Shown here: positions 604 to 19,511 of the stretch, piece after piece
Position numbering within the stretch: the stretch's first letter is position 1
Layout of the letters: the number at the start of each line of letters is the position of its first letter
From: Mycobacterium sp. 050128
GTDB taxonomy: Bacteria; Actinomycetota; Actinomycetes; Mycobacteriales; Mycobacteriaceae
Length of the DNA stretch: 64,000 nt
Assembly: GCF_036409155.1 (NCBI RefSeq)
Contig: NZ_JAZGLW010000001.1
Location: 2,542,001 to 2,606,000, forward strand
Reading direction: 5' to 3'
Notes under the pieces: generated by a model
What the model saw: only the letters and a program-made list of their open reading frames with translations
Told to the model about the DNA's origin: nothing
Database searches by the model: none
Program-made: the position numbers and the translations under genes

Positions 604-636
604 CTCCTCGTCACGGCTCCTTTTCGTACTCCACTA

Positions 637-790: not shown

Positions 791-794
791 CAGG

Positions 795-2303: not shown

Positions 2304-2333
2304 GATGATCTCCTTCTACTGATGGGCCGATGG

Positions 2334-3594: not shown

Positions 3595-3611
3595 CCTTCC
3601 GAGGGGTTGGG

Positions 3612-3627: not shown

Positions 3628-3644
3628 TCATGATGACATAGGAG

Positions 3645-3660
3645 TGGACTGGCAAGTCCA
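3645..3660. promoter_or_regulatory. Palindromic operator 2 (TetR type)
   Basis: TGGACTGGCAAGTCCA: perfect 6-bp arms TGGACT/AGTCCA around a 4-bp spacer, ending 19 bases before the TetR ATG. Together with the copy at 3612-3627 it is the expected autoregulatory operator of that TetR. The half-site differs by one base from the TGTACT half-site near the related TetR at 16337-17017. Confidence 0.75.
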
Positions 3661-3679
3661 GTGTCGGTAGGCTGCGGTC

Positions 3680-4309: not shown

Positions 4310-4464
4310 GCGCGACGGCGCTGATCAGCCAGCAGCCTGCGACTCAGTCGACGTCAGCTCGCCGGCAGGGCGGCCCCACCCGAGAGGCTGGTTCGGATCG
4401 GCAGCGACGCCACGGCCAACCCGACGCTGTTGTGCCGCGACCGTCTTGGATGGATAGGTGCGGC

Positions 4465-5170: not shown

Positions 5171-6418
5171 ATCGTTTCGGCGCCGATTCCGTCTGAAGTC
5201 CTCACGCCCAACGGCTGTGTCGCCGCCGTGGTGGTGACTGCTGGGGCCGAAAGTACTGGCGCTCCTAAAATCCTTAGCGGTCGGGCGCGATGCGCTGATT
5301 GTGCCGTCGGCGCTGGCGAGTTGGCGGCGTGCACATTTTTGAACGAACAGCGGATGAGGTCGCACAGGGGGCTGGTGTCCAAGCGGGCGTAAGCATGTTT
5401 GGTCGCGGCCGACAGGCCGATCTTGCAGACAGCATGGCTTTTCGGCAGTCGAAGACGGCGACAGAGCGTCCGGGTTCGCAAACGGCGACGGCCAGCTGCA
5501 GGAGCGCGGCGCGAAGGACTTTAACGTGGTCGCCTATTCCCCCCTGCACGGGGCAACGCCGCGGCATCCCGATTCCGAGACCAATCTCCTTGTGCCGCTA
5601 GACCATACCGCGGCTGCCGCGAAGTCCAGTATCCACCGTGTCATCGGCGTCACCGTCACGATGTGCACGTCCGATTCGGATATCGAACTGGCACAGGCGT
5701 TCTGTTCACACCGCATCCCACTCGAAGCCACTGTGATGATGGTCAGCGGACGGCGGACGTTCGCGCTCAGCTGAAGGAGGCGGCGGTCGGGATTCCGATG
5801 CTGTCCTCGGTGTTGGCGCTTTTGTTGCTGTCGTTCGCCCGGCAAGCCAGGCCGGGCTGGCCGTGGTGGCGTGTCTGGGGGCGACTCGGTGAACGTCGAT
5901 ACCAGCCCGACTACTTCCGCTTCTCCGTAGGCCCGCGGTAAGACATTGTTCAAGCTTGCGGGAGGGGCGTCTGTGTTGCTTGTGGTGGCGAACCCCGCAG
6001 ATTTCTAGGGCAGTGCAGGGCGGTGGACGAGGCCGGGTTTCGACTCGCGGTGATCATAACGGTGGCCGCTCGCAACAGGAACTGCAAACTTATTGTGCGG
6101 GCGCCACGGTTTGTTGTCGGGTGGGCGCATGGACTCTGACGATGCAGGAGAACATCGATACCCACCGCACTGCGACGTCCGCGTGGCCGGATCGTCTATC
6201 AGGTCATCGAGCGCTGTGCGGGACGGGAATGCGGTGCCAGCAGGCGCAGTTCATTGCGCAGACCCGATTGCGCAGACCCGTCTGCCTCGGAGGGTTGAAG
6301 TCCTTGGAGCCGGGCTTGTTGATCCGGTTCAGCGATACGAGTGCGCTACAGCTACGTAATGGATCCATAACCAGGAATATCTATCGTGCGACAGATTGGT
6401 AGCAAGGGAGTCTGCAGA
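5171..6418. other. 1.2-kb stretch without a recognisable intact gene
   Basis: Several short open frames occur on both strands but none has a coherent domain, good start site or codon pattern like its neighbours. A minus-strand piece near 5300-5560 containing GDHVKVLRAALLQLAVAV might be a transposase scrap, but this is only a faint resemblance. The stretch reads as decayed accessory DNA. Its last 60 bases should hold the promoter of the sulfonate operon; the 10-bp palindrome ATGGATCCAT at 6359-6368 is the only dyad noted there. Confidence 0.5.
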
Positions 6419-7387
6419 ATGTCGACGCTCCGAGTTCGCGGCGGCCGGCTAGCCCGGTTGGTCGGCCGCATTGGATTTGTTGTGGCACTCGTGCTCTTCG
6501 TAGGTGGCTGTGGCGGGGGCGGTGGTGCCCCGGATACAGTCCGGATTGGGACTTTCGCCAGCGCAGTCGATTACGCACCGTTCTATATCGCGCGCAAGCA
6601 ACGGTTGTTCGAATCCGCCGTCGGCGCCGGCACGAAAGTCGACTACGTGGAATTCGACTCGGCGCCAGCCGTCACAGAAGCGTTGGCGACAAACCGGGTC
6701 GACATGGTCTTCATGGCCGAGCCGCCGGCTCTAATCGCCGCGGCGGCGGGAGTTCATTGCAGGATTGTGGCTCTGGGCGCGAGCCTGGTCCAGGACATCC
6801 TCGTACCGATCGACAGCAAGATCGCGAGCGCTGCCGATTTGGGCGGAGCGCGCGTCGGTGTGTTAGCGGGTACGTCGTCGCATTACGCCTTGATCAAGAT
6901 CGCCAAGGATGCCGGCGTCGATCCCAAGTTAATTCAAGTGATCGATATGGCCCCGCCGGACGCGAAGGCGGCGTTCGAATCAGGTCACCTGGATGCGTGG
7001 GCGGTGTGGCCGCCGTTCGTGCAGCAGCAGCTTGTCCAGAAGACCGCCAGGCTGCTACCGGCAGGCGATGCTGCGATCCAGTCCATCGCGGTTGCACGGC
7101 CCGGGCTGGCCGAAGATGCACTGGCCGTTTACTCCGCTTTGGTCGCTGCCATCGGCAAAGCAAAGGAGTTCATCCGCGCATCACCGGCAGAAGCGAAATC
7201 GATTGTGGCCACTGAAGTTCGGGTCGATCCGGAGGTGGTCGAATTGGCCTGGCCGCGCCACGACTTCACCGCCACGCTGACTCAGGAGGTCATTGCCGAC
7301 ATCCAGGCGAAGGCCGATTTCCTGGCCGATGCTGGCTTCATTCAGCAGAAGGTCGATGTCAAGGACCTGGTCGGACCTCCGCGATGA
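6419..7387 (+). CDS. ssuA: ABC transporter substrate-binding lipoprotein, sulfonate/nitrate type
   Basis: A 322-residue SsuA/NMT1-like periplasmic binding protein. Signal peptide residues 12-30 end in FVGG-Cys31, a lipobox, so it should be anchored to the outer face of the membrane. VRIGTFASAVDYAPFYIARKQ, ALATNRVDMVFMAEPPAL and AAFESGHLDAWAVWPPF are family features. The ATG at 6419 is preceded by AAGGGAG at good spacing; an upstream in-frame GTG at 6386 lacks a site. It starts a four-gene unit with a permease, ATPase and alkanesulfonate monooxygenase-like enzyme, so the ligand is probably an organosulfonate (inference). Confidence 0.85.
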   Translation: MSTLRVRGGRLARLVGRIGFVVALVLFVGGCGGGGGAPDTVRIGTFASAVDYAPFYIARKQRLFESAVGAGTKVDYVEFDSAPAVTEALATNRVDMVFMAEPPALIAAAAGVHCRIVALGASLVQDILVPIDSKIASAADLGGARVGVLAGTSSHYALIKIAKDAGVDPKLIQVIDMAPPDAKAAFESGHLDAWAVWPPFVQQQLVQKTARLLPAGDAAIQSIAVARPGLAEDALAVYSALVAAIGKAKEFIRASPAEAKSIVATEVRVDPEVVELAWPRHDFTATLTQEVIADIQAKADFLADAGFIQQKVDVKDLVGPPR

Positions 7388-8208
7388 CGATGATGGTGAC
7401 TGCGCCCGTGGCGACAAATGCGCCCCGTCGACGCCGGCGGTTCTTCGATCGTCTGACAAGCTGCGTACTTGCGCTGGCCGTACCGATCGGACTGGTCGTG
7501 GCATGGCACGTCGCGGTGGTCAGCGGCGTCCTGCCGCACACGCTCGTTGCTGGACCGCTCGACTCACTCGAAGCGTTCGTCAGGCTGGCGATGGATGGAA
7601 CGCTGATCGAGCACGCGTGGGTCAGTGTGCGCCGCATAGCGATTGGCTTTGCCATCGGCAGCACGGTCGGCATTCTGGCAGGGGCGGTGATCGGCACCAG
7701 CCCGTTGGCAGCCAAAATCCTGGAGCCCACCGCCTTGACGTTGATTCCGGTCCCGGCGGTGGCGTGGATTCCGGTGCTGGTCATCGTGTTTGGCATCGGA
7801 GAGCTCTCAAAGGTGACCTTGGTGGCGATCGGGTCCGCCACCACGCTGATCCTGGCGACCGCTGCGGGGATTCGTTCTGCCTCGCAAGATCTCGTGGAGG
7901 TCGCGCAGCTCTACGAGAAGTCGCGCTGGACAGTGCTGCGGACGGTGTTGCTGCCGTCGGCGGCTCCGTCGATTGTCGCATCGGCGCGCGTTGCGATGGC
8001 GCTGTCGTGGACACTGTTGGTCGCGGCGGAGGTCATCGCGTCGGCTAACGGGTTGGGATGGCTCATCTGGGATTCGCGCAACTTCGCACGGCCCGCTGCC
8101 ATGATCGCCGGAATGCTCGCAATCGGCATTCTCGGAAAGGCCACCGATGGGCTTCTCGCCCGCTTCGGCCGCTACCTCACCCGCTGGGACCGCTCCTACC
8201 GTGGCTGA
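7384..8208 (+). CDS. ssuC: ABC transporter permease, SsuC/TauC type
   Basis: A 274-residue integral membrane permease with about six hydrophobic helices. The EAA-like loop reads ELSKVTLVAIGSATTLILAT then SASQDLVEVAQLY, followed by VLLPSAAPSIVASARVAMALS, the BPD_transp_1 signature. The ATG overlaps the stop of the binding-protein gene (ATGA), showing translational coupling. It forms the channel for the ligand captured by the lipoprotein. Confidence 0.9.
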   Translation: MTMMVTAPVATNAPRRRRRFFDRLTSCVLALAVPIGLVVAWHVAVVSGVLPHTLVAGPLDSLEAFVRLAMDGTLIEHAWVSVRRIAIGFAIGSTVGILAGAVIGTSPLAAKILEPTALTLIPVPAVAWIPVLVIVFGIGELSKVTLVAIGSATTLILATAAGIRSASQDLVEVAQLYEKSRWTVLRTVLLPSAAPSIVASARVAMALSWTLLVAAEVIASANGLGWLIWDSRNFARPAAMIAGMLAIGILGKATDGLLARFGRYLTRWDRSYRG

Positions 8209-9049
8209 CGTGAATGGCGCGGAGGTGCCGGCCCTGCAAGTACGAATTCGCGAGAAACGGGTCACGGTCGGCAAGCGTCCCCTGGATGTGCTGAGCGAGG
8301 TCAACTTCGACGTCCGCCGTCAAGAGGTTGTCGGCATCGTGGGTGGCAGCGGAGCTGGCAAGACGTCGCTGCTGCGCGCGATCGCGGGCCTTGACACCAC
8401 GTTCGTTGGCGAAATCCGGGCCTTCGGTCGACTCGTTCGGGGACCCGGCCGGGACCGGGGCCTGGTCTTCCAGGAGCACCGACTGATGCCGTGGATGTCG
8501 TTGTCTGACAACGTCGCCTACGCGCTGCCGTTCCGGAGACCGGCCGCCCAAATCGAAAAGCAAGTCGTCCATGCGCTCGACCTGGTCGGGCTGGCCGGTT
8601 TCGGCAAGGCGTGGCCGAATCAGCTTTCCGGCGGCATGGCGCAGCGAGCCTCCTTGGCCCGCGCCTTGGTCACCACTCCCGAGATCCTGCTGCTCGACGA
8701 GCCGCTGGGCGCGCTGGACAGCCTGCTGCGCAGTCAAATGCAAACCGAACTCGAGCGGATCATCCTCGACGAGGCGCTCACCGCGATCCTGGTGACCCAC
8801 GACGTCGACGAGGCCGTGCTACTGGCAGACCGGGTGATTGTGATGGCTGGTCCACCCGGACGGATCATCGCCGACATGGCGCACCCCCAGCCCCGCCCGC
8901 GGGACGTGGCGGACCCAGCACTTCAGGCCCTCCGCGCCCAGATCCTCACTGTTTTGCATCAAGGAGGCAGGAATGGACATCTACTGGTACATCCCCACCC
9001 ACACCGACGGCCCACACCTGTCGACGATGCACCGGGCGCGGGCGGCTAA
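8201..9049 (+). CDS. ssuB: ABC transporter ATP-binding protein, SsuB type
   Basis: 282 residues from the GTG at 8201, which overlaps the permease end by 8 bases. Walker A GGSGAGKT (48-55), Q-loop LVFQEH, signature LSGGMAQRA, Walker B ILLLDEP and the switch His in VTHDVDEAVLLADR are all present. It powers the SsuC-type permease. The C-terminus is odd: after ILTVLHQGG about 25 His/Pro-rich residues continue 77 bases into the next gene in another frame. The family normally ends about there, so an original stop may have been lost. Confidence 0.9.
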   Translation: MADVNGAEVPALQVRIREKRVTVGKRPLDVLSEVNFDVRRQEVVGIVGGSGAGKTSLLRAIAGLDTTFVGEIRAFGRLVRGPGRDRGLVFQEHRLMPWMSLSDNVAYALPFRRPAAQIEKQVVHALDLVGLAGFGKAWPNQLSGGMAQRASLARALVTTPEILLLDEPLGALDSLLRSQMQTELERIILDEALTAILVTHDVDEAVLLADRVIVMAGPPGRIIADMAHPQPRPRDVADPALQALRAQILTVLHQGGRNGHLLVHPHPHRRPTPVDDAPGAGG

Positions 9050-10070
9050 CCTGCGTTACATCACCCAAATCGCGCAGGCCGCAGACGATCTGGGCTATGT
9101 CGGAGTGCTGGTCCCGACGGGCTCGGTGTGTGAAGACGCATGGATCACCGCGTCGTTTCTGGCACCCGAGACCACGAGCCTGCGATTCATCGTCGCTGTC
9201 AGGCCCGGGCAGTCGACCCCGTCGATGACGGCTCGAATGGCCTCGGCCTTCGACCGCTACAGCAGGGGTCGGCTCACCGTCAACGTGGTCTGTGGAGGCG
9301 ATCCGGTCGAACTGGCCGGCGACGGTGTCTTCCTGTCGCATGGCCAACGCTATGAGCAGGCCGACGAGTACATCCAGGCGTGGACCGACCTGCTGCAGGG
9401 CAAGACCGTGGACATGAACGGCCGATATGTCCGCATCGAAGGGGGGCAGCTTCACTACCTTCCCCTGCAGGAGCCGCACCCTCCGCTGATGTGCGGCGCC
9501 TCCTCTGGCGCTGGGCAAGCGTTCGCCGCGAAATGGATCGACACCGTGCTGACGTGGGGCGAACCACCGGAGCAGGTGCAGCCGAAACTCGACGAGATGC
9601 GGGCCAAGGCACACGCTGCCGGGCGACGAGTCACCTTCGGCATCCGGCTACACACCATTGTGCGGGAAACGAGCAGAGAAGCGTGGGCGGCCGCCGATGA
9701 CTTGATCCGCTACGTGCGCGACGAGGACGTCGCCGCCTCCCAGGCGGCGCTGGCCCGCTCTGAGTCGGAAGGCCAACGCCGCATGGTGGCCCTGCACCGT
9801 GGCTCGAGGGAGCACCTCGAGGTGAGCCCCAACCTCTGGGCAGGCGTCGGTCTGGTCACCGGCGGGGCCGGCACCGCGCTGGTGGGCAGTGTCGAGGAGG
9901 TCCGTGACCGGATCATGGAGTACCACGACATCGGCATCGACACGTTCATCCTCTCCGGGTATCCGCACCTCGAGGAGTGCTACCGGGTCGCTGAGACGCT
10001 GTTCCCGCAGCTGCCCTTCGAACCGAAGGTGAACAGCCTACAGCCGAAGGTGATCCCCGGCGGCTGGTGA
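8973..10070 (+). CDS. ssuD: Alkanesulfonate monooxygenase-like LLM flavoprotein
   Basis: A 365-residue luciferase-like monooxygenase close to SsuD. MDIYWYIPTHTDGPHL, FIVAVRPGQSTPSMTARMAS and VNVVCGGDPVELAGDGVFL match the FMNH2-dependent desulfonation enzyme, which splits alkanesulfonates into aldehyde and sulfite. A strong AAGGAGG lies six bases before the ATG. Gene order after the ssuA-ssuC-ssuB set supports a role in sulfur acquisition. No flavin reductase (ssuE) is seen in the unit, so FMNH2 must come from elsewhere. Confidence 0.85.
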   Translation: MDIYWYIPTHTDGPHLSTMHRARAANLRYITQIAQAADDLGYVGVLVPTGSVCEDAWITASFLAPETTSLRFIVAVRPGQSTPSMTARMASAFDRYSRGRLTVNVVCGGDPVELAGDGVFLSHGQRYEQADEYIQAWTDLLQGKTVDMNGRYVRIEGGQLHYLPLQEPHPPLMCGASSGAGQAFAAKWIDTVLTWGEPPEQVQPKLDEMRAKAHAAGRRVTFGIRLHTIVRETSREAWAAADDLIRYVRDEDVAASQAALARSESEGQRRMVALHRGSREHLEVSPNLWAGVGLVTGGAGTALVGSVEEVRDRIMEYHDIGIDTFILSGYPHLEECYRVAETLFPQLPFEPKVNSLQPKVIPGGW

Positions 10071-10259
10071 TCGACTGTCAGGACAAGGTGTTGGCCTCGC
10101 TGACCACAGCGGCGCCCGCCAGGTTGACCGGAAATCGCCTCAGCTGCAGTCGCTTCCGTCATGGAGCGGGTATTCAGGCCCACTCGCCGCGACACGATGG
10201 ACGGGTGACGACGTGGGCGTGATAGCCGTCGCCGTCAAGTATCGGGCTCGGATTCTGGC

Positions 10260-10285
10260 GCCTCTCCGTTTCACATCGGAGAGGC
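10260..10285. terminator. Stem-loop between convergent genes
   Basis: GCCTCTCCG pairs with CGGAGAGGC (9 bp) around an 8-base loop. It lies about 190 bases after the ssuD-like stop and has no T-run. It may end the plus-strand transcript; terminators without U-tracts are common in mycobacteria. Confidence 0.45.
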
Positions 10286-10341
10286 CGCCCTGCCGCGGTC
10301 TTCGAGGATGACCCCGGCACCGCACGTGTCGTGTGACGGCT

Positions 10342-10377
10342 GGCCTGGCGGGCCGCGGTCGCGTGACCCGCCAGGCC
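10342..10377 (-). terminator. Strong stem-loop after the AhpD-like gene
   Basis: GGCCTGGCGGG (10342-10352) pairs perfectly over 11 bp with CCCGCCAGGCC (10367-10377), with a 14-base loop. It begins 7 bases beyond the minus-strand AhpD-like stop codon, the place expected for its terminator. There is no U-tract. Confidence 0.6.
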
Positions 10378-10384
10378 GTGCGGT

Positions 10385-10921
10385 TCACGGCTGCACGATT
10401 GGGAAGTCGATTTCGGTGTGCGCGACGTTGTTGAAGTAGTTCGTCAGCACGTTAAGGCCCACGTGGCCAATGACTTCGGCGATCTCGGCGTCGGTCAGAC
10501 CTGCGCGGCGCGCGTTTTCCAGATCGGCGTCATCGATGTGGCCGCGGTGTTCGTTGACGGCCACCGCGAATGCAAGGATCGCGGCGGTTTTGGGGTCGTC
10601 CGCATCTGCTTTGCGCGCCGACCCGATTTGATCGGCGCTGAGTCCCGCCGCCTTTTCACCCAGGTAGCTGTGTGCGGACAGGCAATACGAGCACCCATTG
10701 GCCTGTGCGATGGCGATGGCGAGGCGTTCGCGGGTGGAGCCCGGCAGCGTTCCGCGGTCGAGAGCGCCGGCCAAACCGAGATATCCGCGCAGCAGCGCCG
10801 GACTGTGCACCATCGCGCGGGTGAGGTTGGGAATCGTGCCCAATGCCTGCTGCACGGAGGCCAACGCCTCGGCCTGGTCGTTGGTCGCGTCGGCGTCGGT
10901 GACAAGGGACAGCGTGCTCAT
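10385..10921 (-). CDS. AhpD-like carboxymuconolactone decarboxylase family protein
   Basis: 178 residues with the AhpD redox core: Glu65 in TRERLAIA, then GCSYCLSAH with Cys77, Cys80 and His84. In AhpD the CxxC pair passes electrons to a peroxiredoxin; several peroxiredoxin-type genes lie in this region. The ATG at 10921 follows GGAGGAG; the longer frame upstream has no good start. It diverges from an ECF sigma gene across 132 bases holding an inverted repeat GCCCGTG/CACGGGC (10995-11001, 11016-11022). Control by that sigma factor is plausible but not shown. Confidence 0.88.
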   Translation of the reverse strand: MSTLSLVTDADATNDQAEALASVQQALGTIPNLTRAMVHSPALLRGYLGLAGALDRGTLPGSTRERLAIAIAQANGCSYCLSAHSYLGEKAAGLSADQIGSARKADADDPKTAAILAFAVAVNEHRGHIDDADLENARRAGLTDAEIAEVIGHVGLNVLTNYFNNVAHTEIDFPIVQP

Positions 10922-11053
10922 TGGTTCTCCTCCAGTATTGTTCGGGTTGATGGCCTTACACCGCATGCCAGATCGATGAGGCCACTGGTTAGACGCCCGT
11001 GCAGCTGATCTGTTACACGGGCCGCAATTTCGGCTGGGGAGCGGTGCTGGGTA

Positions 11054-11704
11054 ATGGGCGAACACATCCGCACGGTCGTCGACGACCGGTGGGCTAGCGA
11101 GGACGAGTTCGTCGACGCGTTGCGGGCCGGGGACACCGAAGCATTCCGCCTACTGGTCGACACGATGCATGCACCCCTGGTCCGCATGGCGCGGATCTAC
11201 CTGTCGGCGTCCATTGCAGAAGATGCCGTGCAAGACACGTGGACGTCGGTGGTTCGCACGATCGGGAGCTTCGAAGGTCGTTCGACGGTCAAGACGTGGG
11301 TGTTCCGCATCATGCTCAACCGAATACGGACGCTGGCCCGAACACAGGGGCGCACCGTGCCATTTGCCGTCGCAGGTCCGGAGGCGGATCCGTACCCGTC
11401 GGTAGATCCCAACCGGATGGTTCACGCCGAACTGGGTGCCCACCACTGGTCTGACGTGCCCGCAAGGTGGGACCTGTTGCCAGAGCAACGACTGCTTTCT
11501 CGCGAAGTGCGCACCTTGATCTCGCACGCCTTGGCCAAACTGCCAGACGCGCAACGCGAGGTGGTCTCGATGCGCGACGTCGAGGGCTGGACGAGCGAGG
11601 AAATCTGCGACGCGTTGGGGATCTCGGCGGTCAATCAACGCGTGCTGCTGCATCGTGGGCGCGCCGCCCTGCGGGCTGCGCTGGAGGAGTATCTCGATGA
11701 CTGA
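11054..11704 (+). CDS. ECF-type RNA polymerase sigma factor
   Basis: 216 residues. Sigma region 2 is seen in LLVDTMHAPLVRMARIYL and AEDAVQDTWTSVVRTIGSFE; region 4 in LPDAQREVVSMRDVEGWTSE and NQRVLLHRGRAALR. Its stop overlaps the start of a zinc-finger anti-sigma gene, the usual pairing for extracytoplasmic-function or redox-sensing sigma factors. It is similar in layout to the second sigma factor at 15697-16332. Confidence 0.93.
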   Translation: MGEHIRTVVDDRWASEDEFVDALRAGDTEAFRLLVDTMHAPLVRMARIYLSASIAEDAVQDTWTSVVRTIGSFEGRSTVKTWVFRIMLNRIRTLARTQGRTVPFAVAGPEADPYPSVDPNRMVHAELGAHHWSDVPARWDLLPEQRLLSREVRTLISHALAKLPDAQREVVSMRDVEGWTSEEICDALGISAVNQRVLLHRGRAALRAALEEYLDD

Positions 11705-11966
11705 CGAATTCATCACCAACGAACTGCAACTGGCGTGCAGCGACGTGATCGAGCTGGTCACGACGTATCTCGATGACGCACTGAGTAACACAGACCTGCG
11801 CCGGTTCGAACAACACCGACGCGGCTGCGAAGCCTGCCGAGTCTTCATCGACCAGATTCGCCGCACCGTCAAGATCACTGCCGCCGCGCGCGACGACGCG
11901 GTGCAGGTGCGCCCGGCGAACTTCGACGCTCTGGTCGCCGAGCTGCGACGGCGGGGCCGTAGCTAG
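11697..11966 (+). CDS. Zinc-binding anti-sigma factor (ZAS type)
   Basis: An 89-residue soluble protein with the H-x3-C-x2-C motif at His40, Cys44 and Cys47 (HRRGCEAC), the signature of RsrA/ChrR-type anti-sigma factors that hold the sigma factor until zinc or thiol status changes. There is no membrane segment. The ATG overlaps the sigma stop by 8 bases. It resembles the anti-sigma protein at 15404-15703 in motif order (VELVTxYLxDAL). Confidence 0.88.
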   Translation: MTDEFITNELQLACSDVIELVTTYLDDALSNTDLRRFEQHRRGCEACRVFIDQIRRTVKITAAARDDAVQVRPANFDALVAELRRRGRS

Positions 11967-12122
11967 GGCCATCGTGTGCAAATCCACGCCGAACTCGATG
12001 CCCCCGAACGTCGCATGCCGCCGATGATGGCCCATGGCTGCGCGGGGGACAACGAAACTCGAGTCCCCGCCAGTTGTGCGTTCGGACCCGACAGGGCTTG
12101 GTGCTCAAGCGAGTTCATCGTC

Positions 12123-12138
12123 TGTACTGTTTGGTACA
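12123..12138. promoter_or_regulatory. TetR-type operator A of the TGTACT family
   Basis: TGTACTGTTTGGTACA, arms TGTAC/GTACA, 57 bases before the Prx-GAF gene start. One strand of the site at 17694-17709 reads TGTACTGTTTAGTACA, a single mismatch. Two further copies lie at 14337 and 19496. Confidence 0.75.
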
Positions 12139-12194
12139 CTAGGCGAGATCGCTGTCGACAGGCTCGATGACACCACCGACGGGGAAGGCGTGCT

Positions 12195-13364
12195 ATGACA
12201 AGCTCTAAGTTCACCACTTTCAGCGAGAAGGTCGCAGAATTGGCGGAGCAGTTGGCCGGCGTGGCTCCGCCTGAGGTGCTCGAGGTCTTCGCCGCCGACC
12301 AGCGCGAGCTCCAGGCGGCCGGGGTGCCGGCGTCGGTGGCCGTGCCTGGGACGCGATTCCCGATCGCTGAGCTCATTGGGGCGGACGGGACGTCAGTCTC
12401 GTCGGCCGACGTGCTGGCCGGAGCACCCACGGTCGTGGTCTTCTATCGGGGGGCGTGGTGCCCGTATTGCAACATCGCGCTGCGCGTTTACGAACAGGAT
12501 TTGGTGCCGGCGCTGGAGGCCCGCGGCGTTCGTCTGGTGGCCATCAGCCCGCAGAGCCCGGATGGTTCGGTGTCGATGCAGCAGGCCAATGAGCTGAGCT
12601 TCGCGGTGCTCTCCGATCCGGGCAACCGCATCGCCGCCGCGTTGGGCATCGTTATCGCGCCCAGCGACGAAGCGCAGGCCGCGCAGAAGCAGCTGGGGCT
12701 TGATCTTGCGGCGGTGAACGCCGACGGCACCGTTGCGCTGCCGATGCCCACGGTGGCGATCGTCGATGCCGAGTCGGTGTTGCGGTGGATCGACGTGCAT
12801 CCTAATTACGCCACGCGCACCGAGCCTGAAGACATCTTGGCGGCGGTCGACCGTGTTCTTGGCCGCGCGGCCACGTCAGCGGCGACCACACCTTCTCTTG
12901 CCCCGGTGGCGCCCCGCCTGGAAGAACTGGCCGACGAACTCGGTGTCAAGTCCGTTCTGGTCATGCGCTCGGACCCCGATTCCATGGTCGTCGCGGCGAC
13001 GGCGGGCCCGGGCACCGCCTTCTATCGGGTGGGCGCCGCAGGCTCCAAGGCCGGCGCCGCACCGGATCGGGTGCCGCTGTATTGCGAACGGGTGGTCGAC
13101 GGCGGGGAGGCGATCTTCGTGCGTGACTCCCGCCTCGATGACACCTTCGCGGGCAACGAGGATGAGACCGAGTTCGGCTTGAGTAATTACCTCGGGATGC
13201 CGGTCCGAGACGCCGGCGGGCACGTGGTGGGGACGGTGTGTGTTCTTGATGACCACGCACGCGACTATGACGGGGCCGCCCGCGACCACCTCGACGCGCT
13301 GCGCATCGAGGTGGAGGCGATCGTGGCAGCCGACCCGTCGGCGCTTGTCACCGATGATCGGTAG
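12195..13364 (+). CDS. Peroxiredoxin-GAF domain fusion protein
   Basis: 389 residues. Residues about 48-220 form an AhpC/TSA domain with FYRGAWCPYCNIAL (Cys89, Cys92). Residues about 235-385 form a GAF-type sensor domain ending in YLGMPVRDAGGHVVGTVCVLD. The peroxidase half should reduce hydroperoxides. A GAF domain normally binds a small ligand or flavin/haem, or senses redox state; Cys residues in LYCERV and TVCVLD may take part (inference). It has a palindromic operator upstream and ends exactly where the convergent SDR ends. The fusion is uncommon. Confidence 0.85.
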   Translation: MTSSKFTTFSEKVAELAEQLAGVAPPEVLEVFAADQRELQAAGVPASVAVPGTRFPIAELIGADGTSVSSADVLAGAPTVVVFYRGAWCPYCNIALRVYEQDLVPALEARGVRLVAISPQSPDGSVSMQQANELSFAVLSDPGNRIAAALGIVIAPSDEAQAAQKQLGLDLAAVNADGTVALPMPTVAIVDAESVLRWIDVHPNYATRTEPEDILAAVDRVLGRAATSAATTPSLAPVAPRLEELADELGVKSVLVMRSDPDSMVVAATAGPGTAFYRVGAAGSKAGAAPDRVPLYCERVVDGGEAIFVRDSRLDDTFAGNEDETEFGLSNYLGMPVRDAGGHVVGTVCVLDDHARDYDGAARDHLDALRIEVEAIVAADPSALVTDDR

Positions 13365-14309
13365 TCAGCGAGCGGCGGCGACAAATCGGTGGATGGCTTC
13401 GTCGGCGCGATCTTGGATCGTGGTGTCGGCGAAGTCTGCCAGGATCGTCGCCTGGTCGACGACGGGCCCGGTGAGCTTCCCGGCGCCACTGGCGTAGAAC
13501 ACTCCGCTGCGGTACGAGTCATCGACGATTGCGTCAACCAGACGTCGCGCGCCGACGTCGAGCTTGTGCGCAAGGCCGAACAGCGGTGCGATGTAGGGCA
13601 TCACGACGCGGCTCATGACGGTCCTCACTATCGGGTTGGTGTGCTCGAACGCGTTGGTGCCTGCGGTGTTGCCCGGGCTCACGGTGAGCAGACGAAGGTC
13701 GGGATGGCGGCGTGCCAGGGCCGATATCCACAGTGCACCAAGATATTTCGCGTGGGCGTAAGCCAGCATCGCGGTGGCGCGCCTGCCGGTGTAGAAGGAT
13801 CCGTCGATGACGCCGGCGAACTCGTCGGCGGAATGGTGGGCGAAGGTTGGGGGTGGGATGCGCAATTGAACAACACCACGGGCAGCCTCGCTGCCGGTCA
13901 GCACGGCGGCGGCGGTTAACATTTCACGCTGGATCAGCGCCTCCAGCAGCATCACGTGCCCCAGCACGTTTGCGGCGAAGACCTCGGTGACACCATGGTC
14001 GTTGAGCGCCAATGGTTTTGGCCCGCCGAGGCCGCCAGCGTTCAAGACGACGGTGTGCAGCGGTTTGGTGATCGTGTCGAGGGCCGATTGCACAGATCCG
14101 GGATCGGCGACGTCCATGTGCAGGATTTCGAACAGCGCGGTGTTCGTGGCGCGCTCGAGGTCGGATCGTGCCGACGCGGCTCGCGTGAGGTTGCGACACG
14201 CGAGGAAGATTGTCGAAAATGCGCCGCGCAGTGCCAGTTGCCGTGCGATCTCCTTGCCGATCCCGGAATTCGCGCCCGTGATGAGAATGGCCCGATCCGT
14301 CCGTGTCAT
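13365..14309 (-). CDS. SDR-family oxidoreductase, protochlorophyllide-reductase-like
   Basis: 314 residues with TGANSGIGKEIA (NADP-binding), a VLNAGG motif in the NNAG position and YAHAK as the YxxxK active site. The length and spacing suit the WW-oxidoreductase/retinol dehydrogenase-like branch of SDRs. The substrate is unknown. It is divergent from the haloalkane dehalogenase gene and shares with it an 82-base promoter region that carries one palindrome, so the two are probably co-controlled; the SDR could oxidise an alcohol released by dehalogenation (inference). Confidence 0.85.
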   Translation of the reverse strand: MTRTDRAILITGANSGIGKEIARQLALRGAFSTIFLACRNLTRAASARSDLERATNTALFEILHMDVADPGSVQSALDTITKPLHTVVLNAGGLGGPKPLALNDHGVTEVFAANVLGHVMLLEALIQREMLTAAAVLTGSEAARGVVQLRIPPPTFAHHSADEFAGVIDGSFYTGRRATAMLAYAHAKYLGALWISALARRHPDLRLLTVSPGNTAGTNAFEHTNPIVRTVMSRVVMPYIAPLFGLAHKLDVGARRLVDAIVDDSYRSGVFYASGAGKLTGPVVDQATILADFADTTIQDRADEAIHRFVAAAR

Positions 14310-14336
14310 CGCCGCTCCGACCGCCGAAAGTCTGAC

Positions 14337-14352
14337 TTTACCGTTCGGTACA
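14337..14352. promoter_or_regulatory. TetR-type operator B of the TGTACT family
   Basis: TTTACCGTTCGGTACA, an imperfect copy of the site at 12123-12138 (13 of 16 bases equal). It lies between divergent SDR and haloalkane dehalogenase genes, 27 and 39 bases from their starts, so one bound repressor could close both promoters. Confidence 0.65.
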
Positions 14353-14391
14353 CTACATCACGATCACCTGCCTCACACCTGGAGCTGCCCG

Positions 14392-15285
14392 ATGAGCGTT
14401 GGCCTGCCTGAAGTTTTTCGGACCCCGGAGGGCCGATTCGCCCACCTGCCTGGCTATGACTTCACGCCGCACTATGTCGACGTTGACGGTCTGCGGATCC
14501 ATTACCTCGACGAGGGCCCGCGCGAGGGCACGCCGATCGTGTGTTTTCACGGCGAGCCGAGTTGGGTTTACCTGTACCGCAAGATGATCGGCCCGCTGGT
14601 GGCCGCGGGCCACCGTGTCATTGCGCCGGACTACGCCGGCTTCGGGCGCTCGGACAAGCCGACTGACCCGAACTGGTACACCTTCGACCGGCACGTGCAG
14701 ATCGTCAGCGCGGTGCTCGATCGCCTCGACGTGCAGCAGGCGACGGCCGTGGTGCAGGACTGGGGCGGCCCGATCGGCCTGCGCTGGGCCGTCGAGCACT
14801 CCGATCGCGTGGCTGCACTGGCGATCTTCAACACCGGGCTGTTCACGGGGCGGGTGTCCAAAGGGTTCCTGTCCTGGCGCGAGTTCGCCGAGAAGAACCC
14901 CGACCTCCCGGTCGGAATGGTGATCCAGGGTGCGACGGCCACCGACCTGGCCGACGACGTCGTCGCCGCCTACGACGCGCCCTTCCCCACGCCCGAGTCC
15001 AAAGCCGGGGCGGCCCGCTTCCCGCTGCTTGTCCCCATCACGGGCGACGACGTCGGGGCCAACGAGATGCGGGCGGTCATCGACCAGCTGTCGCGGTGGC
15101 AGAAGCCGGCCCTGGTGGCGTTCTCCGACCAGGACCCCATCTTCCCCTTCCCCCGAGCTGGTCAGGTGTTCTGTGACCTCATCCCCGGCGCCATCGATCA
15201 GGTGCGCATCGAAGGCGCATCGCACTTCCTGCAGGAGGATCGCGGCGAGCTCCTCGCCCACGAGGTGCTCAAGGTGGCGCCGTGA
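14392..15285 (+). CDS. Haloalkane dehalogenase (HLD-I-like)
   Basis: A 297-residue alpha/beta hydrolase. HGEPSW (53-58) supplies an oxyanion-hole region. QDWGG gives nucleophile Asp123 with the adjacent Trp124 that clamps the halide. FSDQDP gives the acid Asp248 and GASHF gives His278. Asp-His-Asp with paired Trp is the pattern of subfamily I dehalogenases, which hydrolyse haloalkanes to alcohol, halide and a proton. The ATG was preferred because the upstream frame runs antisense through the SDR gene. The enzyme is cytosolic. Confidence 0.88.
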   Translation: MSVGLPEVFRTPEGRFAHLPGYDFTPHYVDVDGLRIHYLDEGPREGTPIVCFHGEPSWVYLYRKMIGPLVAAGHRVIAPDYAGFGRSDKPTDPNWYTFDRHVQIVSAVLDRLDVQQATAVVQDWGGPIGLRWAVEHSDRVAALAIFNTGLFTGRVSKGFLSWREFAEKNPDLPVGMVIQGATATDLADDVVAAYDAPFPTPESKAGAARFPLLVPITGDDVGANEMRAVIDQLSRWQKPALVAFSDQDPIFPFPRAGQVFCDLIPGAIDQVRIEGASHFLQEDRGELLAHEVLKVAP

Positions 15286-15403
15286 CGAAAGTGTGACGGC
15301 TGGTGGCAACGACCCGTTGGCCGTGTCACGCTGAATTCATCGGCCCGGCATTCCGCCGCGCCGACCGGGGATCTGGGGACCCGATGATTGTCGAGGGCGA
15401 GAA

Positions 15404-15703
15404 ATGACGTCTAAGGCTGGCCGGATGCGGTGGTGGTGGCGGCGGCGCGGGGTGATGCGGTCGCGCCCGCTGCGGTGCGAGGAGATGGTCGAGCTGGTCA
15501 CGGCGTATCTGGAGGACGCGCTCGATGCCGACGATCGCGCGCGCTTTGAGACGCATCTGCACGGATGTGAGGGCTGCGCCGCTTATTTGGACCAGTTGCA
15601 CGCCACGGTCGGCACTCTGGGCGGCATCCGTGAGGAGCACCTCGATCCGGTCTACCGCGCCCGGCTGCTGGCCGCCTTCGCCGAGACGGCGGGCTCATGG
15701 TAA
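15404..15703 (+). CDS. Zinc-binding anti-sigma factor (ZAS type)
   Basis: 99 residues with HLHGCEGC: His51, Cys55 and Cys58 fit the H-x3-C-x2-C anti-sigma zinc motif. The first 20 residues are basic and Trp-rich; a later start at ATG Met18 is possible. Unlike the pair at 11054-11966 the anti-sigma gene comes first here, overlapping the sigma gene by 7 bases. It should bind and inhibit the downstream sigma factor under reducing conditions (family knowledge). Confidence 0.85.
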   Translation: MTSKAGRMRWWWRRRGVMRSRPLRCEEMVELVTAYLEDALDADDRARFETHLHGCEGCAAYLDQLHATVGTLGGIREEHLDPVYRARLLAAFAETAGSW

Positions 15704-16332
15704 CCCGGATCGCCGGTGAGCAGGCGTTGGTCACGGGGCTTCGCGCGGGTGATCAGCGTGCCTTTGCTCAACTGGTCGACGAGCACACGCCCGCCCTGTT
15801 GCGTGTCGCACGCGCCTACGTCTCCGATCACCCGACAGCCGAGGACGTGGTGCAAGAGACTTGGATCGCCGTGGTGAAGGGCATTAGGGGTTTTGAGGGC
15901 CGATCCTCGCTCAAGACGTGGCTCTTTGCGGTGTTGACAAACATCGCCAAGCAGCGCGGGGTTCGCGATCATCGGCGCAACGAGACCCTCACCGACTTCG
16001 GTGCGGCCACCGTGGATCCAGCGCGCTTTCACCGTCCCGGCGAGCCCGGCGCCGGCTCGTGGAAACAGCCGCCGGCGCCGTTCCCGGACAGCCCGGAGGG
16101 CTCGGTTCTGCATCGCGAGTTGTTGGAGGTTGCCCGGCGTGAGCTGGACAAGTTACCCGAGGGACAACGCGCCGTGGTGACCCTGCGCGACCTTCTCGGG
16201 TTCGACGCCGCGGAGGTCTGCGAGGTGCTCGACATCACCGCGGGCAATCAACGGGTGCTGCTGCACCGCGGACGCGCAGCGATCCGTCAAAGTCTTGAGG
16301 ATTACCTCAGCGCAGGCCAGCGAGAGTTCTGA
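15697..16332 (+). CDS. ECF-type RNA polymerase sigma factor
   Basis: 211 residues. Region 2 is in LVDEHTPALLRVARAYV and AEDVVQETWIAVVKGIRGFE; region 4 in LPEGQRAVVTLRDLLGFDAA and NQRVLLHRGRAAIR. A Pro/Gly-rich linker (RPGEPGAGSWKQPPAPFPD) lies between them, as in the first sigma factor's PYPSVDPNR linker region. It is a probable paralogue of the gene at 11054-11704. It ends four bases before the convergent TetR gene. Confidence 0.92.
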   Translation: MVTRIAGEQALVTGLRAGDQRAFAQLVDEHTPALLRVARAYVSDHPTAEDVVQETWIAVVKGIRGFEGRSSLKTWLFAVLTNIAKQRGVRDHRRNETLTDFGAATVDPARFHRPGEPGAGSWKQPPAPFPDSPEGSVLHRELLEVARRELDKLPEGQRAVVTLRDLLGFDAAEVCEVLDITAGNQRVLLHRGRAAIRQSLEDYLSAGQREF

Positions 16333-16336
16333 CGGC

Positions 16337-17017
16337 TCAACGGGTTTGGCGCTTGCGGCGGGCCGATCCGGGTTTGGCGGGTGCTGAAGTAGCCGCCCAG
16401 CGGTGAAGTTCGGTGACCGCGCCGTCGAGGGTGTCGCGTAGCACGGTGACGTTTCCGCGCACACGGGCGAGCAACATCCCGCCCTGCAGGGCGGCGATGA
16501 CCATGGCGGCCAGGCGCGCCGGTTTCGCCGTGTGCACCAGGTCGCCGCGATCCTTCATCGCCTTCAGCCCGCGCGCCAGGGGGGCTTCCCACCGAGCGAA
16601 CGCGGCATCCAGGCTGGGGCCAAACGTGTCATCGTTTTTCAACTCGGCCGCGATCGTTCCCAACGGACACCCGAACGGGCCGCCCCTTCGGGATTGCTCG
16701 CGCACGATGCGGGCCATCCACGCGTCGATGCCCTGCCAGGAGTCGGTGTGGTCGAGTTCGGGTTGCTGCGCGGCGAGCACCAACTCCAGTTGCCGCTCGA
16801 TCACCGCGGCCACCAGGTCGGCCTTGCCGTCGAAATAGTGATACATCTGGCCCTTGCCGGCGCCCGCGGCGGTCAGCACGTCGTCGAGGCTGGTGGTGCT
16901 CACGCCGTTGTGATACATCAACGTGGCCGCGGCGTCCACGATCTGTGCGCGCGCACGCTGACCGCGCGCGGTCGCTGGGAGCGGGCGCGCCGTGCCGGTC
17001 GGTCGCAATGCGGACAT
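16337..17017 (-). CDS. TetR/AcrR-family regulator (LmrA/YxaF-like)
   Basis: 226 residues from the ATG at 17017. The helix-turn-helix reads RAQIVDAAATLMYHNGVSTT then LDDVLTAAGAGKGQMYHYF. The C-terminal domain has FGCPLGTIAAELK and ALQGGMLLARV, closely matching the TetR at 3680-4309. It lies 58 bases after the peroxiredoxin-like gene on the same strand, so both probably share the promoter with the palindrome at 17694-17709. It is the best candidate to bind all four TGTACT-type sites. A longer start at 17056 is possible; no strong ribosome site distinguishes them. Confidence 0.88.
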   Translation of the reverse strand: MSALRPTGTARPLPATARGQRARAQIVDAAATLMYHNGVSTTSLDDVLTAAGAGKGQMYHYFDGKADLVAAVIERQLELVLAAQQPELDHTDSWQGIDAWMARIVREQSRRGGPFGCPLGTIAAELKNDDTFGPSLDAAFARWEAPLARGLKAMKDRGDLVHTAKPARLAAMVIAALQGGMLLARVRGNVTVLRDTLDGAVTELHRWAATSAPAKPGSARRKRQTR

Positions 17018-17075
17018 CCCGAAAAGGATATAGAAGCAACCCTGGCCGACCGGCACGGCGCGACCGCGGCCGGTG

Positions 17076-17639
17076 TCACCGCACGTGGGCCAGCAGTTCG
17101 TCGACCGACCACTGGTCGTAGGCGTGGATTCCGCGTTTGGCGGCGACCACTTTGCCGTCCGAGCCGATCAGGAAGTCTCCCGGCAGCCCCAGGGTGCCTC
17201 CGATCGGGTCGTTGTTGTAGACCGGTGTCGGGGTCGGGTCGCCCCGCTTGAGGAGTTGGCGAATCCGCTGGGCCACGACCGGGGCGAGGGCGCGGGGGTC
17301 GAGGATGGCCCGCCGCGAGGAACCCACACCGAACTCGTCGTAGAGCAGCTTGGCCGGATCGCCGATGACCGCGAACGGCAGCTCGACCCCGTGGCGGCGC
17401 AGTTCGTCATCGCTGGAGTGGAACACCACCACCTCACGGATGCCGGCCGCGGCGATCTCGTCGTAACGCCGCGCCATCGACTGAAGGTGCACGTTGCAGA
17501 TCGGGCAGCCCGCGAAGCGACGCAACTGCAGATGGACAAGGCGGTCGGGATCCGGGATGCGCACCGTCTCTCCGGATACGGTGACCAGTTCCCGGGGTGC
17601 CACCACAGTGCCCGGGCCGACGACGTTGGCTTTTCTCAT
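17076..17639 (-). CDS. Peroxiredoxin-like (AhpC/TSA superfamily) protein
   Basis: 187 residues with RRFAGCPICNVHLQ; Cys45 and Cys48 form the redox CxxC. VVVFHSSDDELRRHG, FAVIGDPAKLLYDEFGV and LGLPGDFLIGSDGKV match the paralogue at 1722-2303. It probably handles peroxides or acts as a disulfide oxidoreductase. It is first in a unit with the TetR gene, downstream of a near-perfect palindrome, so it is probably de-repressed when that TetR meets its inducer. Confidence 0.87.
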   Translation of the reverse strand: MRKANVVGPGTVVAPRELVTVSGETVRIPDPDRLVHLQLRRFAGCPICNVHLQSMARRYDEIAAAGIREVVVFHSSDDELRRHGVELPFAVIGDPAKLLYDEFGVGSSRRAILDPRALAPVVAQRIRQLLKRGDPTPTPVYNNDPIGGTLGLPGDFLIGSDGKVVAAKRGIHAYDQWSVDELLAHVR

Positions 17640-17693
17640 GAGAAGTACTGCCTTTCAGAAAGTTCGTGGCGGGCCCGCAAGTGACAAAGATAG

Positions 17694-17709
17694 TGTACTA
17701 AACAGTACA
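17694..17709. promoter_or_regulatory. TetR-type operator C of the TGTACT family
   Basis: TGTACTAAACAGTACA: perfect 6-bp arms with a 4-bp spacer, 54 bases before the peroxiredoxin-like start and upstream of the TetR gene itself. Confidence 0.8.
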
Positions 17710-17872
17710 GTCGAGGCTGCGGTGGGTAATGGGCGATTTCGCGGCTGTCGGCGTTTCGTCACCATGACCTGACGGTGTACGACAATGCTTGCCGCCCAGG
17801 GCCGAATCGCACTTCGGTGGTGGCGTGCCGAGTCGGCGTCGACCATGGCGCCCATCGTCGATCGCGTGGGGG

Positions 17873-18346
17873 TCACCCACGTAGGGTGTCGGCCAGGGTC
17901 CACAGCGACACCCCGAGTAGGACGACGTCCTTGAGCAGGAACTGACCGGTCGACGACAATGCGGGGAATCCGCCGCCGGCCGCTTCGGCGACGCCGGGGG
18001 TGCTGAACAGGAAGCTGATCGTCGTCAGGAACAACAGCGTCGCCAGGACGCTGCCGAGCACCGAGAGTTTGGGCGCGATGGGTTTGGCGGCCAGCAGGAT
18101 CGCGGTGAGGATCTCGAAAACCCCCAGCAGATTGGAGAAGGTCTGCACCGAGAACAGGTTGTAGAGCCAGCTCAACAGTGGGCTGTTGGCGACCAGTGGC
18201 TGGATGCCCTCGGCCTCGTAGGCGGTGAACTTCAGCGCACCGATCCAGGCGATCACGACGACCAGGCCGTAGCGGGCGACGAAAGACGCGAGGCCTTCGA
18301 GCCTCGCGTGGATGCCCGGATTGGTCAGGACATTGTTGGTAGCCAC
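17873..18346 (-). CDS. DUF417/RclC-like inner-membrane protein
   Basis: 157 residues with four hydrophobic helices. ARYGLVVVIAWIGALKFTAY, EAEGIQPLVANSPLLSWLY and SNLLGVFEILTAILLA match the DUF417 (YkgB) family; E. coli RclC, needed for reactive-chlorine resistance, belongs here. The GTG at 18346 is chosen because GGAGG sits eight bases upstream; an ATG at 18397 in frame lacks a site. Its place among peroxiredoxins suits a role in hypochlorous acid or electrophile stress (inference). Confidence 0.8.
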   Translation of the reverse strand: MATNNVLTNPGIHARLEGLASFVARYGLVVVIAWIGALKFTAYEAEGIQPLVANSPLLSWLYNLFSVQTFSNLLGVFEILTAILLAAKPIAPKLSVLGSVLATLLFLTTISFLFSTPGVAEAAGGGFPALSSTGQFLLKDVVLLGVSLWTLADTLRG

Positions 18347-18434
18347 GAGTTTAACCTCCAAACGGGAGTCTGCTGTCGTTGGTGTGGTGTCGGCCAACCC
18401 GGCTTCCGTTACACAGAACAGGGTTTCGGCTCCA

Positions 18435-18454
18435 AGTTGACCGAATGGTCAACT
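18435..18454. promoter_or_regulatory. 20-bp perfect palindrome upstream of the RclC-like gene
   Basis: AGTTGACCGAATGGTCAACT: 8-bp arms AGTTGACC/GGTCAACT with a GAAT spacer, about 90 bases before the GTG start. It has the same 4-bp-spacer layout as the TGGACT and TGTACT sites but a different half-site, so it probably serves another regulator. Confidence 0.65.
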
Positions 18455-18572
18455 ACGACTCAGGCGCGAGGCGCCTGTCCGCGTGGTCGCTGCCTGTGTG
18501 TTTGACAAGGAGTGGACGCGGGCGCCGTAACGGCTGTTCGTGGCGACTGTCAGGTTCGCAACGGTGTCGGGT

Positions 18573-19463
18573 TTACCGACGCTGTCCGTCAACGGCCGAA
18601 GCGAGACGGCAGACGGCGTCGGCGATCTGTTCTGGGTAGTCCTCTTGGAGGAAATGTTTGGCGGGCAACAGGATCGGGTCGTCGATGCCTGATGCCAGTT
18701 GCGCGTGAATGCCGTCGTGGCGCAATGTCAGGGCGTGGTCTCGGGCGCCCCAGACGATCTGCACCGGATACGGGGTGTTCCGTACGGCGGACACGTAGCG
18801 CCGTTGCTTGTCGGCGGTCGGCTCGAAGCCTCGCATGATCTTCAGGAACGCCCGCCCGCCGTCGTCGCCGAGCAACAGCGGGACATACGCGGCGATTTCG
18901 GCCGCCGGAACCTTGCGGCTGACACCCGTGTAGCGCATCAACGACAGGAACACACCGGGCAACTGCAGCGACGCCAGCCACGCCTCGCCCACGCCCGTGT
19001 GTGCAAACGGCTCCATCATCCACGGGCGCTGAAAGCTCTCAACGGCCACAGTGGTGTTGAGCATGGTCAACGACCGGATCCGGTCAGGCTGTGCTGCGGC
19101 GACTTCGAACCCGATCGGCCCTCCGATGTCGTGCACCACCAGGTGGAAACGTTCGAGCTCCAACGCGTCGACGGCCGCGAGCAACCAGCGGCCAAGGCCG
19201 GTCCAGGTGTAGTCGAAGTCCGCCGGACGTTCGGCGTAACCCAGCCCGGGCAGGTCGACGGCAATACCGCGCAGACCCCGGTGCGCCACGGCCGCTACGA
19301 CCTTGCGGTAGAGATAGCTCGACGCGGGAACCCCGTGCACGCACACCACCGGCTCGGCGTCCGGCGCACCGGCATCGAGGGCAAAGGAGCGCACCCCGGC
19401 GGCGGTGAACTCTCTGCCCGATGCCCGGTACCCGGCCAATAATTGCTCGACGGCAAGCGACAT
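18573..19463 (-). CDS. Alpha/beta-fold hydrolase, epoxide hydrolase/dehalogenase-like
   Basis: 296 residues. CVHGVPASSYLYRK is the oxyanion region, HDIGGPIG carries an Asp nucleophile, and the C-terminal LLPAKHFLQED carries the His. Haloalkane dehalogenases have Trp after the nucleophile and Glu/Asn plus Trp in the HG motif; here these are Ile and Val-Pro-Ala, so halide binding looks lost. An epoxide hydrolase or ester/haloester hydrolase is more likely. It has operator D 33 bases upstream and so seems to join the TetR regulon. Confidence 0.82.
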   Translation of the reverse strand: MSLAVEQLLAGYRASGREFTAAGVRSFALDAGAPDAEPVVCVHGVPASSYLYRKVVAAVAHRGLRGIAVDLPGLGYAERPADFDYTWTGLGRWLLAAVDALELERFHLVVHDIGGPIGFEVAAAQPDRIRSLTMLNTTVAVESFQRPWMMEPFAHTGVGEAWLASLQLPGVFLSLMRYTGVSRKVPAAEIAAYVPLLLGDDGGRAFLKIMRGFEPTADKQRRYVSAVRNTPYPVQIVWGARDHALTLRHDGIHAQLASGIDDPILLPAKHFLQEDYPEQIADAVCRLASAVDGQRR

Positions 19464-19495
19464 TATCCTGTGGATCCGTTCATCTCAGCCTACCC

Positions 19496-19511
19496 TGTAC
19501 TGGACAGTACA
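19496..19511. promoter_or_regulatory. TetR-type operator D of the TGTACT family
   Basis: TGTACTGGACAGTACA: perfect 6-bp arms, 4-bp spacer, 32 bases before the hydrolase ATG at 19463. Confidence 0.78.

Follow-up and report, generated by a model that had tools for sequence, protein, structure and literature searches.

The 64,000-nucleotide stretch of Mycobacterium sp. 050128 analysed here (the window; contig NZ_JAZGLW010000001.1, positions 2,542,001 to 2,606,000) contains a cluster of peroxiredoxin, oxidoreductase, dehalogenase and hydrolase genes around a gene for a TetR/AcrR-type repressor, TetR 16337-17017, with four copies of a 16-bp palindrome of the type TGTACY-N4-RGTACA, one of them imperfect, in front of them (Table 1). 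A preliminary description of this DNA had placed four such palindromes 27-57 bases before start codons. All four sequences were found there, and the measured gaps are 27-56 bp: 56 bp from operator 1 to the start at 12195, 27 and 39 bp from operator 2 to the divergent starts at 14309 and 14392, 54 bp from operator 3 to 17639 and 32 bp from operator 4 to 19463. The accompanying gene list holds for the peroxiredoxin-GAF (Prx-GAF) gene, the divergent SDR and dehalogenase genes, the peroxiredoxin-like and TetR genes and the hydrolase gene, and omitted the DUF417 gene that lies between the sites.

Table 1. Features of the repressor cluster, followed by a related repressor elsewhere in the window (a dot marks features without strand).
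Feature	Position	Strand	Details
Operator 1	12123-12138	.	TGTACTGTTTGGTACA; overlaps TACACT, a -10-like hexamer before the Prx-GAF gene
Peroxiredoxin (AhpC/TSA, CPYC) fused to GAF domain	12195-13364	+	PF00578, PF08534 and PF01590 above cut-off; annotated on pMK12478 as redoxin family protein
SDR family NAD(P)-dependent oxidoreductase	13365-14309	-	PF00106
Operator 2, imperfect (TTTACC/GGTACA)	14337-14352	.	TTTACCGTTCGGTACA; between divergent SDR and dehalogenase genes; TACACT toward dehalogenase
Haloalkane dehalogenase (HGEP, QDWGG)	14392-15285	+	NF002043 353 bits, cut-off 265
TetR/AcrR repressor, TetR_C_13_2 (LmrA/YxaF-like)	16337-17017	-	recognition helix GKGQMYHYF; single cysteine Cys117 (GCPLG)
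Peroxiredoxin-like protein (AhpC-TSA_2, CPIC)	17076-17639	-	PF13911 34.7 bits, cut-off 27; NF040769 below cut-off
Operator 3	17694-17709	.	TGTACTAAACAGTACA; before peroxiredoxin-like gene and TetR; TACACT -10-like hexamer
DUF417 membrane protein	17873-18397 (start 18346 or 18397)	-	PF04224 125 bits
Alpha/beta hydrolase, haloalkane-dehalogenase fold (HGVP, HDIGG)	18573-19463	-	PF00561; Ile for Trp after nucleophile
Operator 4	19496-19511	.	TGTACTGGACAGTACA; before alpha/beta hydrolase; right arm without TACANT hexamer
Another TetR of this family (45% identity)	3680-4309	+	recognition helix SKSQLYHYF (Ser-Lys type)
Two TGGACY-N4-RGTCCA palindromes	3612-3627, 3645-3660	.	between second TetR and divergent peroxiredoxin (3103-3588)

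TetR 16337-17017 belongs to the TetR_C_13_2 family, with scores of 46.9 bits for PF21993 (cut-off 27) and 45.4 bits for PF00440 (cut-off 24). The peroxiredoxin-like gene, on the same strand and upstream of it, likely forms one operon with it. The protein of 14392-15285 is a haloalkane dehalogenase by its NF002043 score and by the Trp after its Asp nucleophile (QDWGG), and its best solved relatives are 6f9o, 5esr, 4mj3 and 2xt0. The hydrolase of 18573-19463 reaches 113.6 of the 265 bits required by the same model and has HDIGG without the Trp; the 60 best solved matches shown for it are dehalogenases or constructs derived from them. The earlier label 'epoxide hydrolase' for this protein is therefore unsupported, and it is described here by its fold. 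The DUF417 protein falls below the RclC equivalog model (NF040476, 102.6 against 275 bits) and is assigned to DUF417 only. A different perfect palindrome, TTGACCGAATGGTCAA (within AGTTGACCGAATGGTCAACT), lies before its gene at 18437-18452; two such sites occur in the genome and four in the control. Two related pairs of extracytoplasmic function (ECF) sigma and zf-HC2 anti-sigma genes, in opposite gene order, lie beside the cluster (11054-11966) and inside it (15404-16332). None of the three proteins searched with PADLOC had a match.

The palindromes exceed chance expectation. With up to three mismatches, the pattern of the preliminary description matched the window at 4 places (6 strand-matches), compared with a shuffle mean of 0.61, and none of 100 shuffles reached 6. 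TGTAC-N6-GTACA occurs at 6 places in the 6.73-Mb genome (reversed control, 2), and exact TGTACY-N4-RGTACA at 5 (reversed control, 0). Three of these five sites lie within the cluster, and another is 1.1 kb from a paralogous, 68%-identical TetR gene with its own haloalkane dehalogenase. A loose matrix (TGTACYGTTYRGTACA, 3 mismatches) showed no excess genome-wide (37 forward matches versus 40 in the control), and therefore only near-exact sites are informative; the genome scan that had been suggested works with such sites and fails with the loose matrix. One further match in the window, TGTACGACGGTGTACA at 46763, was rejected: the Y/R pair is missing, and its position is outside the island described below.

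To compare relatives, we used 20 stretches of up to 15.5 kb each around orthologs and paralogs of the TetR, and a genus search of 198 genomes. All 1024 five-base half-sites were ranked as 5-N6-5 palindromes within 1.5 kb of the TetR gene, with no prior choice of letters. TGTAC was the top half-site, present in 13 of 17 ortholog loci (at least 53% identity); after the window and three near-duplicates had been dropped it was found in 11 of 13 loci, with 3 for the next half-site and a mean of 0.09 over the 1024. In a held-out genus of the same family, whose loci were fetched afterwards (58-62% identity), the site was present in all 11 loci and always twice (22 sites), while the second-best half-site, GAACG, was found in 8 of the 11, as is expected among close relatives. 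Fourteen more distant loci from family and phylum searches (37-46% identity) had TGTAC in 3 cases and TGGAC in 5. Across the genus, close orthologs (best E <=4.4e-47) were present in 17 genomes, and these gave 54 sites, against 3 in the control. Site counts differed between genomes with and without such an ortholog (Mann-Whitney p 3.5e-9); five genomes with a best match of only E 1e-40 to 1e-43 were placed among the 181 others. About 90 kb past the cluster, the genome of Mycobacterium sp. 050128 repeats the module (locus L001): the TetR and dehalogenase there are 68% and 48% identical to those of the cluster, an exact site lies at 7331, and sites with one mismatch lie at 2152 and 5456.

Because the pairing is kept in orthologs and in the paralog, in more than one genus, we assign the site to this TetR; the comparison of letters strongly suggests that TGTACY-N4-RGTACA is the site of TetR 16337-17017. 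The regulon had been called local. It does combine several genes, one TetR and one operator type, and it extends beyond the locus through the paralogous cluster about 90 kb off and the orthologous pairs in other genera. The candidate TGTACCAAATGGTACA at C5:131123 was rejected as a member, since its neighbours in L002 are an SRPBCC-like reading frame and a different TetR-type gene (labels read from the letters). Among the matches listed, its letters recur in many genus genomes without a close ortholog of the cluster TetR, and it is probably a separate conserved operator (L002 7124-7139, near the TetR-type gene).

The genes behind the site in relatives include peroxiredoxin-like-TetR-dehalogenase operons (L053 and L058; behind a one-mismatch site in L056 and L057) and dehalogenases (L051, L064 and L065; one-mismatch site in L001). 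Genes of unannotated loci come from a home-made caller, which misses some, such as the DUF417 gene of L054. At the L054 site, an AhpC/TSA peroxiredoxin is followed by a Prx-GAF-like gene, and a carboxymuconolactone decarboxylase family protein is found by similarity to window 10385-10921. DUF417 genes lie behind the site in L020, L054 and L061, the methionine sulfoxide reductase (Msr) genes MsrB-MsrA in L060, and an OsmC-hydrolase with a lipoamide-dehydrogenase/MerA-like flavoprotein behind a one-mismatch site in L061. A CPA2 antiporter follows the site in L061; in L060 the site overlaps its called start. PF00174 molybdoenzymes were found in L052, L066 and the other genus, an MDMPI-type protein in L051, and a DM13 gene before the TetR in L062. 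The flavoprotein and DUF417 proteins of the relatives remain below the RclA and RclC model cut-offs. In the other genus (L103-L106), the site stands before a PF00174 molybdoenzyme gene together with a second, small gene; a methyltransferase gene precedes the TetR in three of the four loci. A methyltransferase and a molybdoenzyme surround the TetR of L001 as well, and L106 has a universal stress protein gene upstream.

Judged from these genes, the common theme of the site-fronted functions is oxidant and electrophile repair. Chlorine-type oxidants appear to fit the gene content best, since Msr, DUF417 and peroxidases occur together there; the site-fronted haemophore-like gene of L052 and the DM13 and methyltransferase genes give no support to the chlorine-type theme.

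The position of the operators suggests how repression would work. A TACANT -10-like hexamer, made of the last four palindrome letters and two more, was present at 23 of 31 oriented sites (background T 0.19), which were hand-picked from the loci compared and include a few one-mismatch sites; in the window, TACACT lies at the right arm of three of the four operators. Because the right arm falls within this hexamer, a bound repressor would cover the promoter. The only cysteine of TetR 16337-17017, Cys117, aligns with Cys106 of Escherichia coli NemR (NC_000913.3), and on account of this alignment the TetR is likely a thiol sensor at that residue. A single-sequence fold of the protein was too poor for use (mean predicted local distance difference test score 42.4). 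Therefore, we hypothesize that TetR 16337-17017 binds all four sites and at rest represses the peroxiredoxin, SDR/dehalogenase, peroxiredoxin-TetR and hydrolase genes, and that oxidants or electrophiles would modify Cys117 and release the TetR, so that the detoxification genes would be turned on together. We give this reading, a four-site TetR regulon relieved by Cys117 modification, a probability of about two in three. The inducer would be hypochlorite-like oxidants or organohalides. From gene content alone, the natural signal may be a reactive-chlorine-like oxidant, with the peroxidases and the DUF417 protein acting against the oxidant and the dehalogenase against chlorinated products.

Several observations weigh against this regulon or its proposed trigger. 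A looser pattern, TGTACYNNNNRGTACA with 3 mismatches, shows no more than weak enrichment in the window: it matches 29 times, against a mean of 21.7 in shuffled sequence, and 5 of 100 shuffles gave at least as many. Among the 17 ortholog loci, L055-L057 carry the one-mismatch site TGTACTGTCAAGTCCA only, no site was found in L059 even when one mismatch was allowed, and genome G151 has the ortholog and no exact site. The remaining 181 genomes hold 100 sites versus 70 in the control, which points to some background and to site-bearing genomes without a close ortholog; part of it is the different recurrent site TGTACCAAATGGTACA. The DUF417 gene of the cluster has a different palindrome before it and no TGTAC operator of its own. 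In the four other-genus loci, no match to the window dehalogenase or peroxiredoxins was found within 1.5 kb, so that dehalogenation would not be the core of the regulon. As for the sensor, a cysteine occupies the Cys117 position in 62 of 63 family rows and is thus not special to this regulon. In NemR, the sulfenamide switch pairs Cys106 with Lys175; at the lysine position the window TetR has Arg185 and the other printed rows have R, Q, S or T, and chemistry identical to that of NemR is therefore unlikely. With one cysteine and no lysine partner, S-mycothiolation or a dimer disulfide would be the more likely thiol step. CssR, another actinobacterial TetR stress regulator, is reported not to be redox-active (PMC8176726). 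Two TetRs of M. smegmatis are S-mycothiolated under hypochlorite (PMC5430705); they are not claimed here as members of the family of the cluster TetR.

The strongest competing explanation holds that the TetR binds the same four sites and that its signal is a small ligand bound in the pocket, a halogenated or other organic compound, with a structural cysteine and the dehalogenase as the key enzyme, in the manner of DhaR-like catabolic control. A dehalogenase homolog does lie beside or near the TetR ortholog in 9 of the 16 genus loci that remain when the window is set aside (L001, L051, L053, L055-L058, L064 and L065; partial match in L054). In addition, the family relatives LmrA/YxaF are ligand-responsive, and YxaF is without the cysteine (GIPVG). 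However, many other site-fronted genes belong to oxidant repair (Msr, peroxiredoxin, DUF417) and the four other-genus loci keep the regulon without a dehalogenase match, and we consider pocket sensing unlikely compared with release through Cys117. A further alternative makes the ECF sigma/zf-HC2 pairs the main regulators and the palindromes minor. It is favoured by the place of both pairs inside or beside the cluster and by an ECF homolog (57-66%) that recurs close to the TetR orthologs of L051, L061 and L065. It is nevertheless very improbable, as the ECF gene is present in 3 of 16 ortholog loci, whereas the palindrome tracks the TetR.

The recognition helix bears on which TetR reads the sites. 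Among 59 TetR rows of the family, which are not independent and in part repeat one place (e.g. L037/L067), the 32 with a Gly-Lys helix (G-K-S/G-Q) have TGTAC-N6-GTACA within 1.5 kb in 28 cases and TGGAC in none, and the 16 with a Ser-Lys/Arg helix have TGGAC in 15 and TGTAC in none. Single cases are in line with this division: TGTAGT for L070 (V-G-V-S-Q), TGGAAT for L098 (V-S-A-S-Q) and TAGACC for NemR (P-K-G-S). No convincing palindrome was found for the other non-Lys rows (L007, L009, L088, L089, L091 and L010), and in L095 the nearest candidate, TGTATC, is as far as about 1.1 kb away. A repeated independent origin of the Gly/Ser difference was rejected, because a tree of 59 of the 63 rows, built without the helix columns and leaving out four rows with degenerate or odd helices, needs a single Gly/Ser change, other rows uncounted. 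The pairing of helix residues with operator letters is offered as a lead and not as proof; if two helix residues do follow the operator letters, the family would be suited to sequence-based regulon prediction.

This division also bears on the possibility that another TetR, for example paralog 3680-4309 or that of C1:2650574, reads the four sites in place of TetR 16337-17017. The genome has 12 further matches to the TetR at E<=1e-8, and the helix of the 68%-identical paralog is nearly the same (GKSQLYHYF versus GKGQMYHYF) and could cross-bind. Since the Ser-Lys paralogs, 3680-4309 included, go with TGGAC, and copies in plasmid pMK12478 and other species keep the local TetR with the sites, we see little chance for this explanation. 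Some paralogs have a degenerate recognition helix such as EPKELRRHF or EVRELDRHF (L060 8036-8599, L061 6216-6740 and L066 6685-7335), and two of these three adjoin an intact TGTAC-type TetR; they are possibly regulators that no longer bind DNA.

Of the known systems, NemR of E. coli (nemRA-gloA) is a TetR repressor detectable from the cluster TetR by phmmer (E 5.8e-5 to 4yze). It resembles that protein in the cysteine position and in having a 6-4-6 palindrome near the start of its own gene (TAGACCGACTGGTCTA, 30 bp before nemR). It differs in its half-site (TAGACC versus TGTACY), in its six cysteines versus one and in the lysine partner, and no homolog of nemA or gloA was seen in the annotation of the cluster. 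We take the product of rcrB to belong to DUF417; in L020, L054 and L061, a gene of that family is found close to both a TGTAC site and a TetR relative. According to PMC9600549, NemR and RcrR are HOCl-responsive TetR repressors, the rcrARB operon of uropathogenic E. coli includes rcrB, and RcrR relies on Cys54/Cys95 of four cysteines. The window TetR has no such pair, and unlike RcrR it would control several separate promoters, including that of a dehalogenase. Bacillus LmrA/YxaF (QdoR) share the C-terminal domain PF21993, with YxaF (1sgm) as a solved relative, whereas YxaF has Ile at the Cys117 position and the targets differ. Their ligand, a flavonoid, also differs from the signal proposed here. 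The enzyme of 14392-15285 shares family and motifs with the DhlA/DmrA haloalkane dehalogenases. DhaR-dhaA control in Rhodococcus, a catabolic switch, likewise has a TetR adjoining a dehalogenase; in the window, by contrast, one operator type stands before several genes of stress type, the dehalogenase among them.

No description of this regulon was found in the accessible portions of the literature searched, and two papers on pMK12478 (PMC10470612, PMC5322544) treat the plasmid generally in the parts available. The proposal of an undescribed detoxification regulon thus stands for one TetR with one operator type, peroxiredoxins and a dehalogenase, with the qualification that the regulon rides on a plasmid or island. 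Its parts are of known kinds, and what is new is the combination: a one-cysteine NemR-like repressor, several separate promoters, a dehalogenase together with peroxiredoxins, and mobility. If it answers chlorine-type oxidants, the regulon would be a concrete genetic reason why some mycobacteria survive oxidant stress, and it would suggest why dehalogenases can adjoin peroxiredoxins.

The cluster lies on a mobile block. This block, 44 kb in all, consists of window 1-30783 and 13.4 kb of preceding DNA (L072 6636-20000) and matches plasmid pMK12478 (NC_022654.1) at 99.9-100%; the M. avium plasmid NZ_CP029333.1 matches window 1-30783, the extent compared. In this genome the block sits within a chromosome-size contig (3.64 Mb). 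The left end of the block comes to within one base of a tRNA-Arg(CCT) gene, and close to that end is a gene annotated as site-specific integrase, for which no Pfam family match was found; the block is probably an integrated island. M. arupensis, M. chlorophenolicum, M. tusciae and M. canariasense carry its 12.7-kb centre at 99.97-100% identity, and six named mycobacterial species have the near-identical stretch. A more far-reaching interpretation, which we hold tentatively and regard as somewhat doubtful, is that of a mobile anti-reactive-chlorine island, near-unchanged across opportunistic and environmental species. Its one-cysteine NemR-like repressor would, through one operator type, couple oxidant destruction by two peroxiredoxins to the clean-up of chlorinated by-products by the dehalogenase, hydrolase and SDR, and the helix code (Gly-Lys for TGTAC, Ser-Lys for TGGAC) would let parallel paralogs serve distinct stress circuits within one cell. 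In M. neglectum (L019, around 6248), the centre is present with window 14279-16768 deleted. The deleted segment holds the dehalogenase, operator 2, an ECF/zf-HC2 pair and the TetR beyond its first 83 residues; three operators are kept, and expression from these may be constitutive in that strain.

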